Assembly: GCF_003634775.1 (NCBI RefSeq)
Contig: NZ_RBXB01000001.1
Span: 186,001 to 250,000 of the forward strand
Reading direction: 5' to 3'
DNA length: 64,000 nucleotides
Source of the DNA: Chryseobacterium defluvii
GTDB lineage: Bacteria > Bacteroidota > Bacteroidia > Flavobacteriales > Weeksellaceae
The position numbers were made by a program, and so were the translations under genes. This document shows positions 17,627 through 21,548 of this stretch, piece by piece (positions within the stretch are counted from its first letter, which is position 1; every line of letters begins with the position of its first letter). The notes beneath the pieces were generated by a model, which ran no database searches, was not told the origin of the DNA, and was given only the letters and a program-made list of their open reading frames with translations.

Positions 17627-18283
17627 ATGGATATGATAGATCATCAGTTTATAATCAATAAGTTCGGGTTCCTGGGTAGTGATTTCTTTGATGAAATGCA
17701 GAAACATGCCATAATAGATACAATAAAAGCAAAGACCGAAATCATACGGGAAGGGCAAAAGATAAGGTATGTCCCTTTTTTAATCAAAGGATCTATAAAA
17801 GTCTATTCCCTGAATGACGGCCGCGAACTTATTTATTATTATGTCCGGCCGGACGACAGCTGCCTGATGACCTTTGCTTCCATTTTTGGGGATTACACCA
17901 GCAAAGTATATGCGATCGCTGAAGAGGATTCGGAAGTATTGCTGATTCCCGCTTCCGTTTTGCACAATTGGCTCATCCGTTTCCCTGAGATTAATAAACT
18001 CTTCTATCACGAATATGACAAAAGATTTACTGATGTCATGAATATGGTCAATGAAGCTGTTTTCCACAGACTGGATAAAAGGATACTCAGCTACGTGAAA
18101 CAACAGATTTCACTCACAGGAAATAACCCTATTAAGCTTACTCATAGAGAAATTGCCAGCAACCTGGGAACTTCGCGGGAAGTTGTAAGCAGGGTATTGA
18201 AAAAAATGGAAAATGAAGGAGAAGTTGTACAGACTAGAGACGGAATACAAATACTTGCTAATGAAAATGTTAGAACAATCTAA
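17627..18283 (+). CDS. Crp/Fnr family transcription regulator
   Basis: Cytoplasmic regulator of 218 residues with an N-terminal cyclic-nucleotide-binding-like domain (about 10-130) and a C-terminal winged helix (about 165-210). The recognition helix reads TSREVVSRVLKKME. It has the Arg-Glu-xxx-Arg arrangement with which E. coli CRP reads GTGA half-sites. There is no N-terminal cysteine cluster, so it is not an oxygen-sensing FNR of the usual kind. Starts at 17627 or 17633 are both possible; the promoter at 17606 excludes the longer frame. A matching GGTGA-N6-TCACA site lies 52 bases after its stop, in front of the exported cluster it probably controls. The effector is unknown. Confidence 0.93.
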   Translation: MDMIDHQFIINKFGFLGSDFFDEMQKHAIIDTIKAKTEIIREGQKIRYVPFLIKGSIKVYSLNDGRELIYYYVRPDDSCLMTFASIFGDYTSKVYAIAEEDSEVLLIPASVLHNWLIRFPEINKLFYHEYDKRFTDVMNMVNEAVFHRLDKRILSYVKQQISLTGNNPIKLTHREIASNLGTSREVVSRVLKKMENEGEVVQTRDGIQILANENVRTI

Positions 18284-18334: not shown

Positions 18335-18350
18335 GGTGACTTTTATCACA
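18335..18350 (+). promoter_or_regulatory. CRP-type operator
   Basis: GGTGACTTTTATCACA, that is GGTGA-N6-TCACA, differs from the E. coli CRP consensus TGTGA-N6-TCACA at one outer base. Its centre (18342.5) is about 30 bases before the -7 element at 18373, the geometry of class II activation. Confidence 0.6.
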
Positions 18351-18372: not shown

Positions 18373-18380
18373 TAAGTTTG
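18373..18380 (+). promoter_or_regulatory. -7 element of the exported redox cluster
   Basis: TAAGTTTG matches TAnnTTTG exactly, 27 bases before the DUF5777 ATG. A second exact match, TATTTTTG at 18351-18358, touches the operator; if that one is used the operator would repress instead. Confidence 0.5.
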
Positions 18381-18406: not shown

Positions 18407-19246
18407 ATGACGAAAACTCTCTTATTTTTGTCGGTATTGATTTCAAATCTTGCCTATTCCCAGGAAGATTTGCTTAAAGATATTGACACACTCAAGACAA
18501 CCGAAACTTCACCACCTGCTTTTAAAGCCTTACAGGTCGTTACCGGTCAATCTACCAAGCTCACTGCCAAAAATGAATGGTATATTGTGGTGGCACACCG
18601 TTTTGGAGATATAAGTACCGGCTTCAAAAACTTTTTTGGATTAGACGATGCTTCCACCAAATTAGGAGTGATCTATGGTGTAACTGATGGACTTTCTTTA
18701 AGCCTTTCCAGAGAAACCAATATGAAAACATTTGAAGGAGCGGCCAAATATAAACTGGTAAAGCAAAATGAAAATTTCCCCGTAGACATTGTAGGATACA
18801 ATGTAATGGGTGTAAATACAGATTTGGATAAAGATAACTATCCGCATCTGAAATTTGGGGATCGGCTTTCTTACCTTACACAGGCATTAATTTCAAGAAG
18901 GTTTAATGATAAGTTTTCTTTACAGTTAAGTCCTTCTTATATTCATAAAAATTTATATGATCCGAATATAGAAGACAAAAATCAGTTCTTGGCCGGATTA
19001 GGGGGACGTTATAAAGTCTCCAAAAGAATTTCGGTAAATGCGGAATATTTTGTCAATTTTGATAATCACAGTTTCTATAAAAACCCGTTGTCATTAGGAG
19101 TAGATATAGAAACCGGGGGACATGTTTTCCAGCTTTTGTTCACCAATTCCCAGCTCAATTCCGATATCGGATATTTATCCAATGCGACGGGGGAGTGGGG
19201 AAAAGGTCATATTTTCTTTGGGTTTAATCTTTATAGAGTTTTTTAA
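18407..19246 (+). CDS. DUF5777 outer-membrane beta-barrel protein
   Basis: Exported protein of 279 residues with a signal peptide ending near residue 18 (NLAYSQ). The sequence alternates amphipathic strands, has the DUF5777 pattern (FKALQVVTGQSTKLTAKNEW, VVAHRFGDIS, GVTDGLSLSLSRE) and ends in FGFNLYRVF with the C-terminal Phe typical of outer-membrane barrels. First gene of a five-gene cluster with a CRP-type operator upstream; the cytochrome c gene starts one base after its stop codon. Likely sits in the outer membrane. Transport substrate or anchoring role is unknown. Confidence 0.88.
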   Translation: MTKTLLFLSVLISNLAYSQEDLLKDIDTLKTTETSPPAFKALQVVTGQSTKLTAKNEWYIVVAHRFGDISTGFKNFFGLDDASTKLGVIYGVTDGLSLSLSRETNMKTFEGAAKYKLVKQNENFPVDIVGYNVMGVNTDLDKDNYPHLKFGDRLSYLTQALISRRFNDKFSLQLSPSYIHKNLYDPNIEDKNQFLAGLGGRYKVSKRISVNAEYFVNFDNHSFYKNPLSLGVDIETGGHVFQLLFTNSQLNSDIGYLSNATGEWGKGHIFFGFNLYRVF

Positions 19247-19247
19247 A

Positions 19248-19586
19248 ATGAAAAAGATAATATATATATCATCACTCGCCATTACTTTAATCGCTTGTGA
19301 AAGCAGAACCTATGAAGAAATTTCAGATAACACGCCTATTGTTGAGAAAATAACGTATAACAAAGATGTAAAACCAATAGTAGAAGCCAATTGTGTATCC
19401 TGCCATTCTCCGGGAGCACAGGCTTTGACGAATTATGACCAGGTTAAAACACATATTGATAATATTTTGGACAGGATTCAGAGACCTAATGGTGATCCTG
19501 GGAAAATGCCGCAAGGAGGGGCGTTAACCCAAACTCAGATCAATATTTTCATCAAATGGAAAGCCGACGGTCTGGTAGAAAATTAG
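19248..19586 (+). CDS. Mono-haem cytochrome c lipoprotein
   Basis: Periplasmic lipoprotein of 112 residues. The lipobox LIAC puts the acylated Cys at residue 17. One CxxCH haem-binding motif (CVSCH, Cys49, Cys52, His53) is present; Met87 in GKMPQGG is the likely distal ligand. A longer in-frame start exists, but the ATG at 19248 gives the signal peptide and sits right after the upstream stop. It is an electron carrier by family; its donor and acceptor are unknown. Neighbours are an outer-membrane barrel, YceI and a DOMON protein. Confidence 0.9.
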   Translation: MKKIIYISSLAITLIACESRTYEEISDNTPIVEKITYNKDVKPIVEANCVSCHSPGAQALTNYDQVKTHIDNILDRIQRPNGDPGKMPQGGALTQTQINIFIKWKADGLVEN

Positions 19587-19605
19587 AAACAGAAAAAATA
19601 GAGAA

Positions 19606-20151
19606 ATGAAAAATATAATACTAATCATTGTCACGTTACTGTTCAGCAACCTGATTTCGGCGCAGAAATACAGTTCTAAAACAGGGAAGGTAACGTTTGA
19701 AGCATCAGTTCCTTTATTTGAGGATGTTTTTGCACAGGATGACACTAATGTGGTGGTGTTGAACGCGGATACGGGAGATATCGCTTCTATTTCTGCCGTT
19801 AAAAACTTTCATTTTAAAGTGAAATTAATGGAAGAACATTTCAATGAAAGCTATGCCGAATCATCAAAATATCCCAAAACCACTTTTACCGGAAAGATTT
19901 TGAACTTCGATAAAACCAAACTTACAACCTCTCCTCAGAAATATACAGTTCAAGGGAAACTCAACTTCCATGGAGTGGATAAAGCAGTTACTTCTTCTGC
20001 AACCATATATGCTAAAGACGGGAAAATATATATGCAGGGAGGCTTCGTAGCAAGACCAGCGGATTTTAATGTGAAGATCCCTAAAATGGTTACGAAAAAA
20101 ATTGCTGAAACGGTAAATGTTGAATATAATTATGCACTGGTAAAACAATGA
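19606..20151 (+). CDS. YceI-family periplasmic protein
   Basis: Exported protein of 181 residues with a signal peptide ending near residue 19 (NLISAQ) and the YceI lipocalin-like pattern: GKVTFEASVPLFEDV, HFKVKLMEEHFNESYAESSKYP, KTTFTGKI and YTVQGKLNFHGVDK. YceI proteins bind long isoprenoid or quinone-like lipids in a beta-barrel pocket. The stop overlaps the start of the ankyrin gene (ATGA, 20148-20151), implying translational coupling. In this cluster a quinone-handling role is plausible but inferred. Confidence 0.92.
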   Translation: MKNIILIIVTLLFSNLISAQKYSSKTGKVTFEASVPLFEDVFAQDDTNVVVLNADTGDIASISAVKNFHFKVKLMEEHFNESYAESSKYPKTTFTGKILNFDKTKLTTSPQKYTVQGKLNFHGVDKAVTSSATIYAKDGKIYMQGGFVARPADFNVKIPKMVTKKIAETVNVEYNYALVKQ

Positions 20152-20675
20152 AAAATCTACTCTTAATAATAAGTATGTTCCTGAGTTGTACATTTTTTTC
20201 AGCCCAGGAAAAAGCAAAATCAATTTTTGATATTGCAAGAACCGGAACAGTAGCAGAAGTAAAAGAACTGATGAAGCAGAATCCGGACGTCATCAACCAG
20301 GCTAATGAAAATGGCTTTTCTCCGCTTATTTTAGCATGCTATAGGGGAAATGTAGAAGTGGCTAAATTTTTGATGGATAACGTAAAAGACATTAACTATA
20401 AAAGTCAGGAAGGAACGGCATTAGCTGGCCTTTCTGTAAAGTATAATAAAGAACTCGTAGAGTATTTATTAGAGAAGAAAGCTGATCCCAATATTGCAGA
20501 TTCTACAGGATCCACACCATTATTTTGGGCGGTGAAATTCGGGAATAAAGAATTGATAGAATTATTATTAAAGCATAAAGCTGATAAGTCTAAAAAAGAT
20601 TCAATGGGAATGACTCCATTTGAATATGCCCTACAAACCAATAACAAAGAAATCATCAACCTCTTAAAAAATTGA
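20148..20675 (+). CDS. Exported ankyrin-repeat protein
   Basis: Protein of 175 residues with a signal peptide ending near residue 21 (TFFSAQ) and four to five ankyrin repeats from about residue 28 to the end (NGFSPLILACYRGNVEVAKFL; STPLFWAVKFGNKELIELLL; GMTPFEYALQTNNKEIINLL). Ankyrin repeats mediate protein contacts. Periplasmic ankyrin proteins are known next to catalase and redox genes in other bacteria. It overlaps YceI by 4 bases, and the DOMON gene begins 2 bases after its stop. Partner unknown. Confidence 0.92.
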   Translation: MKNLLLIISMFLSCTFFSAQEKAKSIFDIARTGTVAEVKELMKQNPDVINQANENGFSPLILACYRGNVEVAKFLMDNVKDINYKSQEGTALAGLSVKYNKELVEYLLEKKADPNIADSTGSTPLFWAVKFGNKELIELLLKHKADKSKKDSMGMTPFEYALQTNNKEIINLLKN

Positions 20676-20677
20676 AT

Positions 20678-21436
20678 ATGAAAAAAGTTTTACTAACACT
20701 AAGTTTAGCTCTTGCAGGGATCGTTGGAGCGCAATTTTCTTCTGGGACAGTAAGTCTGGGAGCAACAGGAATGACAGTAAGGCTGGAAACTACACCAACT
20801 CTGGCTACTTTAACAATTACGGGAAACAGTACTTCTTATTTGGGAATAGGATTTGGAGCAGTAGGAGATGGCATGGCTGATGGTGCTGATGGATTTATAT
20901 ATAACGCAACTGCTAACAGGGATTATACATTTAATGGAGTTGGAACGGCACCATCTCCTGATGCTGGTGGCCAGGATTGGACAGAAACTTCTAATACGGT
21001 TTCAGGTACCACAAGAACTGTAATTGCGACAAGATCACTGACTGGGGGAGCTGGAGATATGGCAATTCCTAATGCGGCAGGACCCATCCCTATTTTCTTT
21101 GCCAGAGGAGGAAGTACAACCATTACTCAACACAGTTCTACCAACAGAGGATATGCGACATTAAATATGGCTGCTACTCTGGGAACGCAAGAGGCTGCTC
21201 TGGCAGAAAGTAAGAAAGTGGTTCTTTATCCAAACCCGGCCAAAGAAACGGTAAGCTTTAAAAACTTTGATAAAATAAAATCTGTTGATATCTACGAATC
21301 ATCAGGAAGAAAAGTAAAATCTGTAAAAATGGATGGTGAAAGTATCTCGGTTTCCGATTTAAAATCAGGAAGCTATTATTTCGAGATCACTTTAAAGGAC
21401 GGAACTTTATCTTATGAAAAATTAATTAAAGAATAA
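20678..21436 (+). CDS. T9SS-exported DOMON-like (probable haem b) protein
   Basis: Protein of 252 residues. Signal peptide to about residue 18 (IVGAQ). Residues about 25-165 look like a DOMON domain: YLGIGFG, GMADGADGFIYN, a DW-T motif and TRTVIATRSLTGGAGD, IFFARG, then QHSSTNRGYATLNM. Met66 and His152 sit where haem ligands lie in cytochrome DOMON domains. Residues about 185-252 are a type A T9SS sorting domain (LYPNPAKETV ... YYFEITLKDGT). An in-frame TTG two codons upstream is less likely than the ATG at 20678. Last gene of the cluster, closed by a terminator. A surface-exposed haem protein is the inference; sugar binding is the alternative. Confidence 0.8.
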   Translation: MKKVLLTLSLALAGIVGAQFSSGTVSLGATGMTVRLETTPTLATLTITGNSTSYLGIGFGAVGDGMADGADGFIYNATANRDYTFNGVGTAPSPDAGGQDWTETSNTVSGTTRTVIATRSLTGGAGDMAIPNAAGPIPIFFARGGSTTITQHSSTNRGYATLNMAATLGTQEAALAESKKVVLYPNPAKETVSFKNFDKIKSVDIYESSGRKVKSVKMDGESISVSDLKSGSYYFEITLKDGTLSYEKLIKE

Positions 21437-21440
21437 ATAA

Positions 21441-21467
21441 AAAAGCCGCTTTTCAGCGGCTTTTTTA
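21441..21467 (+). terminator. Intrinsic terminator of the redox cluster
   Basis: AAAAGCCGCT / AGCGGCTTTT, a perfect 10-bp stem with a TTTC loop and T tract. Confidence 0.93.
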
Positions 21468-21540
21468 TTTACAACAATTCTAAAAAGAGCTTTTAATGTT
21501 TTTTTAACCTGCCAAACTTTCAGCAGCGGAATACAGATAG

Positions 21541-21548
21541 TAACTTTG
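21541..21548 (+). promoter_or_regulatory. -7 element of the phosphodiesterase gene
   Basis: TAACTTTG matches TAnnTTTG exactly, 15 bases before ATG 21564. A possible upstream TTG start lies inside this element and is thereby excluded. Confidence 0.6.

Follow-up and report, generated by a model that had tools for sequence, protein, structure and literature searches.

A conserved DUF5777, cytochrome c, YceI, ankyrin and DOMON operon of Chryseobacterium defluvii as a candidate electron-transfer module of the cell envelope

Two described systems come closest in kind to the five-gene cluster studied here, which spans positions 18407-21436 of a 64,000-nt stretch of Chryseobacterium defluvii DNA (GCF_003634775.1, NZ_RBXB01000001.1, positions 186,001-250,000; hereafter the window). 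In the iron oxidase Cyc2 (PMC8406198), a mono-haem cytochrome c lies periplasmic to a single outer-membrane barrel. In the BcnA/LcoA system, the YceI protein BcnA and the cytochrome b561 LcoA jointly guard against lipid peroxyl radicals (PMC9113575). The cluster is a member of neither. Its five open reading frames (ORFs), all on the + strand, encode according to the ORF list and Pfam a DUF5777 protein, a cytochrome c lipoprotein, a YceI protein, an ankyrin protein and a DOMON protein with a type IX secretion system (T9SS) tail. We consider it on balance probable that they form an inducible cell-envelope electron-transfer module, i.e., a DUF5777-cytochrome pair, a YceI protein that carries a quinone and a haem DOMON at the surface, by which single electrons would pass between the interior of the envelope and the cell surface.

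With regard to Cyc2, the likeness lies in the mono-haem cytochrome c periplasmic to a barrel, with cytochrome c and DUF5777 fused in seven genera. In the window, however, cytochrome and barrel are separate genes, and single polypeptides are found only in distant relatives. For DUF5777, 12 strands are predicted compared to 16 in Cyc2, and the AXPXFAR[Q/K][T/Y] motif upstream of the Cyc2 CXXCH is not found in the window cytochrome, which reads YNKDVKPIVEANCVSCH. DUF5777 systems furthermore differ in their common CX4CH, their YceI and T9SS partners and their heterotrophic Bacteroidota hosts. We thus reject membership in Cyc2 on motif and strand number. Both features also bear on a Cyc2-like inward flow, in which an extracellular donor (e.g., Fe(II) or phenols) would be oxidised and the electrons passed via the periplasmic cytochrome c to a terminal oxidase. 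While the fusions share the arrangement of Cyc2, the differing strand number, the absent motif and the heterotrophy of Chryseobacterium make this direction improbable.

The likeness to BcnA/LcoA is that of a YceI protein genetically tied to an envelope cytochrome partner. Here, the partner is a cytochrome c, Rieske protein or cupredoxin instead of an integral cytochrome b561, and the set further comprises an outer-membrane barrel and secreted redox proteins; a linked cytochrome b561 gene was not found among the ORFs and Pfam assignments of the unit, which has a cytochrome c instead. MtrCAB/MtoAB also combine a barrel, a cytochrome c and a surface haem protein, but with ten haems per protein rather than one. 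Their multihaem cytochrome sits in a 26-strand barrel, whereas we find one haem motif and 12 strands, and the surface protein of the window, exported by the T9SS, is a predicted b-type haem protein. CYBDOM ferric reductases and the cytochrome domain of cellobiose dehydrogenase (CDH) resemble the window DOMON in fold and in the Met/His b-haem pair as extracellular electron outlet. In contrast to these, the window DOMON is free, T9SS-exported and provided with an ankyrin partner, and has no attached cytochrome b561 or flavin domain. Finally, some Flavobacterium relatives are similar to the flavinylated extracytosolic ApbE/DUF2271 systems (PMC8238504), i.e., a DUF2271-like protein with flavinylation motif together with ApbE occupies their T9SS slot, whereas the window operon has no DUF2271-like protein. 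DUF5777, YceI, DOMON and Rieske are not mentioned in the main text of that ApbE survey (PMC8238504).

The first-pass annotation of the cluster knew of no named system with this set. In the literature, including that on Flavobacterium, Chryseobacterium and T9SS contexts, we found no description of the gene set and no paper naming DUF5777, with most subscription papers outside the coverage of either search. To this extent the statement stands, while relatives in kind (Cyc2, BcnA/LcoA) do exist. We see in the set a new variety among the electron-transfer systems of the envelope, bordering on a family of its own.

Linkage, exchangeable carriers and fusions

The first gene of the cluster (18407-19246, + strand) matches the DUF5777 family PF19089 over 247/247 positions (E 1.9e-86), and its product is about 90% identical to the best named relatives. 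DUF5777 is present in all 20 listed genus members and altogether in 41/148 genomes of the family Weeksellaceae, where two of the matches are weak, and in 153/395 genomes of the phylum (~40%) compared to 0/14 control genomes. Within the family (n=148), 35 genomes hold both DUF5777 and DOMON, 4 only DUF5777, 1 only DOMON and 108 neither (p ~3e-28, where the genomes are not independent); G082 (locus L037), counted among the DUF5777-only genomes, does hold a divergent DOMON that was overlooked by the search. Wherever they co-occur, the two genes are about 2 kb apart. The gene order is kept across Chryseobacterium and related genera, and the core of DUF5777, carrier and YceI is found across Bacteroidota. 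The first-pass annotation had proposed an extracytoplasmic redox chain that would fall if the genes were not conserved together; in relatives, the set is kept together.

Some variation was observed as well. At least one Chryseobacterium genome (G136) has a second DUF5777-cytochrome-YceI operon (L044), without ankyrin and DOMON. A membrane-anchored OB-fold (tRNA_anti-like) protein of ~130 aa is an operon member in most Flavobacteriaceae loci (e.g., L081, L119, L221) and absent in the window. In Flavobacterium (L221-L229), a TonB-dependent receptor-like protein (~844 aa) stands beside the operon, in some of these loci along with a Lipoprotein_15-type protein (~300 aa), a type confirmed by Pfam only in L081.

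Our neighbourhood counts refer to 138 DUF5777 loci across the phylum, which are related such that the counts are not independent trials. A redox carrier is encoded within three genes of DUF5777 in 119/138 loci, compared to 11/676 background ORFs labelled as carriers. In the window, this carrier is a mono-haem cytochrome c lipoprotein (19248-19586, + strand) with lipobox, a single CVSCH and a predicted axial Met in KMPQGG; 4rlr is its nearest solved relative (E 0.002). Cytochromes of this kind fill most carrier slots; of 185 homologues, all (100%) retain the haem Cys and His, 99% the lipobox Cys and 98% the distal Met, and many families show CX4CH instead of CX2CH. Elsewhere the slot is occupied by a Rieske protein (12 loci) or a plastocyanin-like cupredoxin (6 loci). 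A similar exchange is observed for the T9SS slot. Weeksellaceae and part of the Flavobacteriaceae have a DOMON there, six loci (L083, L086, L237, L266, L276, L277) a cupredoxin with T9SS tail and eight a DUF2271-like protein with a [S/T]GA[S/T] flavinylation motif. Several of the latter are adjoined by ApbE, which occurs only in loci of this type or its relative L260, and experiments have shown DUF2271 to be a substrate of ApbE (PMC8238504). Such swaps between haem, Fe-S, copper and flavin at fixed positions seem hard to explain other than by electron transfer. The genome encodes cytochrome c assembly and has an NrfD/Fe-S/cytochrome c locus resembling alternative complex III.

In seven genera of one taxonomic order (L284-L290), cytochrome c and DUF5777 form one polypeptide with the cytochrome at the N-terminus, encoded in single open frames that each show CX4CH and a Met-Pro motif. 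Given these fusions, cytochrome and DUF5777 are likely a direct functional pair. DUF5777 would be a small outer-membrane barrel with the cytochrome c lipoprotein anchored at its periplasmic side, and the two would represent the split counterpart of the fused cytochrome-barrels. No solved structure was found among the sequence relatives of DUF5777; its AlphaFold2 model has 12 strands (pLDDT 85, pTM 0.80). His64 (18596-18598) and His239 (19121-19123) are kept in 136/137 homologues, and hydropathy parity orients the two residues toward the lipid, which is why we do not claim a bis-His haem inside DUF5777.

The quinone link and the surface protein

The periplasmic YceI protein (19606-20151, + strand; PF04264, E 2.3e-10) scores 41 bits given a family cut-off of 23.7. 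In published structures, the tunnel of YceI proteins is occupied by octaprenylphenol or ubiquinone-8 (PMC9113575); that of the window protein would carry an isoprenoid (mena)quinone or quinol, by which the DUF5777-cytochrome pair is linked with the redox pool of the membrane. Of the DUF5777 operons with YceI, 0/112 contain an NrfD/Fe-S or dihaem module, compared to 12/26 of those without. Since the lipoprotein of L197 resembles by eye a divergent YceI missed by the profile, this exclusion is strong rather than absolute. It would fit a role of YceI as the quinone-linked input of the module.

Operons of a second type, without standard YceI (L134, L138, L178; also L177, L179, L197), contain cytochrome c and DUF5777 together with an Fe-S protein and NrfD, which would constitute a quinol dehydrogenase. 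In L134, L138 and L178, an ethylbenzene-dehydrogenase-like haem lipoprotein is encoded, too.

The strongest competitor of electron transfer to the surface is the detoxification of lipid radicals by a Bacteroidota counterpart of BcnA/LcoA, which we deem possible and distinctly less probable. Here, YceI-bound quinol would quench lipid peroxyl radicals of the outer membrane and be re-reduced by the cytochrome, Rieske or copper protein, with DUF5777 as docking or lipid-exchange site in the outer membrane and the surface protein as an accessory. YceI is indeed the commonest partner (beside DUF5777 in 112/138 loci), the published YceI-cytochrome b561 system has such a function (PMC9113575), and the invariant His and Arg residues of DUF5777 face the lipid by parity. 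On the other hand, both the T9SS-exported DOMON, cupredoxin and DUF2271 proteins and the DUF5777 operons with NrfD/Fe-S in place of YceI are left unexplained.

The surface protein of the window (20678-21436, + strand) combines a DOMON domain with a T9SS type-A sorting tail, for which both PF18962 (Por_Secre_tail, E 3e-10) and TIGR04183 score above their cut-offs. The orthologue alignment shows Met66 in 24/25 and His152 in 25/25 sequences, i.e., at the positions of the b-haem ligands of CDH and of plant CYBDOM ferric reductases (PMC10784544). In the model of the window protein (pLDDT 84), the fold corresponds to that of the CDH cytochrome domain (1pl3, TM 0.56 with regard to the target; 4qi3) and of ethylbenzene dehydrogenase gamma (2ivf_C), each match with probability 1.00 and E-values from 6e-4 to 2e-3. 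DOMON sequences evolve far more quickly within the genus than those of DUF5777, which is what one would expect of a protein at the cell surface. Electron supply to a lytic polysaccharide monooxygenase (LPMO), as known from fungal CDH, was rejected given that no LPMO_10 is encoded in the genome. An exported ankyrin protein (20148-20675, + strand; PF12796, E 2.9e-30) is encoded directly before the DOMON gene. This holds for 49/49 operon DOMONs compared to 0/22 other T9SS-slot proteins, and due to this strict pairing the ankyrin protein is probably a dedicated partner of DOMON. In this lineage, the DOMON protein, exported by the T9SS with the help of the ankyrin protein, would accept or donate electrons at the surface via its b-haem.

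Taken together, the relay would run from the quinone pool via YceI-bound quinone and/or cytochrome c to DUF5777 and on to DOMON, with electrons most likely flowing outward to surface oxidants, radicals or Fe(III). The extracytoplasmic redox chain of the first-pass annotation is thus well supported by conservation, the cofactor swaps in two slots, the fusions and the DOMON Met/His pair; the route it had suggested in particular, on which electrons pass from quinone over YceI and the cytochrome c to a haem protein at the surface, would agree with our data.

Several observations weigh against such a relay. By itself, a barrel of 12 strands whose only haem lies at one side cannot let an electron cross the membrane in one hop, such that a mobile substrate or a deeper insertion is needed. 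The window DOMON reaches 19 bits (E 0.0017), which is below the curated Pfam cut-off of 32.7; the operon orthologue of L232 scores 34.5 bits. No carrier is found in the operon run of 19/138 loci (some at contig ends), DOMON and ankyrin are absent from most of the phylum, and the T9SS-slot proteins of L087, L252, L259 and L278 lack a recognisable cofactor. Gene set, order and conservation, the ligand residues, the exchange of redox partners, the fusions and the conserved operator are what the sequences show, and haem and quinone occupancy, the physical contacts, the direction of flow and the substrate are what we infer. In addition, some DOMONs bind sugars (PMC10784544), and the solved barrels nearest to DUF5777, namely NanC, FapF and COG4313, serve as channels for sugars, amyloid and small molecules. 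Both would suit an uptake of ligands with DUF5777 as channel, YceI as lipid or isoprenoid carrier, DOMON as sugar-binding surface protein and an incidental cytochrome. We regard this as very unlikely in view of the carrier swapping, the fusions and the haem Met/His pair retained in nearly all DOMON variants. Non-redox uptake as well as Cyc2-like inward flow are less likely than the electron-transfer module and the quenching of lipid radicals.

Regulation, extent and meaning of the unit

Upstream of DUF5777, a CRP/FNR-family regulator with cNMP_binding and HTH_Crp_2 domains (Pfam; 17627-18283, + strand) is encoded, which is probably the local regulator: in nearly all Weeksellaceae loci that have the operon, a CRP/FNR gene adjoins it. 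Its single Cys79 is invariant (38/38) and the FNR-type cysteine cluster is absent, based on which we reject FNR-type oxygen sensing. A palindrome of TGAC-N4-GTCA type, the predicted operator GGTGACTTTTATCACA (18335-18350, no strand), is located at the same place in 37/37 relatives. The exact sequence GTGACNNNNRTCAC occurs once genome-wide, so that a wide regulon was rejected; since a reversed control pattern also occurs once, the weight of the operator rests on its conservation. The palindrome is centred ~42 bp upstream of the transcription start predicted from the Bacteroidota-type -7 box TAAGTTTG (18373-18380, + strand) of the putative promoter, a box conserved in nearly all Chryseobacterium loci. 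Such a placement would correspond to the usual class II position of CRP/FNR activators, i.e., a CRP/FNR-type protein would activate the operon via the promoter-proximal palindrome and render the module inducible. L054 and many deeper loci (L096, L098, L113, L116, L122) show other dedicated regulators, namely FecI/FecR-like genes with a TonB-plug protein (L054) and, in others, an ECF sigma factor together with a gene of ~420 aa; L091 and L102 have MarR.

Given the starts chosen in the analysis, the gaps from DUF5777 to DOMON are 1, 19, -4 and 2 nt, and export signals are present on the YceI, ankyrin and DOMON proteins. At the end of the unit, terminator scan and sequence agree on a strong intrinsic terminator hairpin GCCGCTTTTCAGCGGCTTTTTT (21433-21472, + strand); the scan placed it on the - strand (18-pair stem), and the + strand likewise closes with a T run. 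The phosphodiesterase (PDE) gene at 21546 was rejected as a member, as it lies beyond the terminator and, in relatives, either stands apart from the unit or is missing. The tightly spaced and partly overlapping exported five-gene cluster described earlier is therefore confirmed by ORFs, domains, gaps and terminator. Its genes at 18407-21436 had been delimited correctly, while the upstream regulator and operator were missed; the unit starts one gene upstream of DUF5777, with the CRP/FNR regulator and palindrome belonging to it. In principle, the genes could have come together by chance or as a selfish cluster and share no function, as their interaction is a deduction from gene data. Phylum-wide linkage, fusions, the strict ankyrin-DOMON pairing and the conserved operator leave hardly any credibility to this reading.

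Likely roles can now be assigned to DUF5777 and to the ankyrin protein as a dedicated partner of DOMON. Tentatively, and with less confidence than for the module itself, DUF5777 and cytochrome may constitute, as a minimal cytochrome-barrel, the first such outer-membrane electron conduit in Bacteroidota, which would feed T9SS-secreted surface proteins with exchangeable cofactors (b-haem, copper or flavin) and thereby couple extracellular electron transfer to type IX secretion. If true, a major phylum would possess an outer-membrane electron-transfer device of its own, and type IX secretion would gain a redox role.

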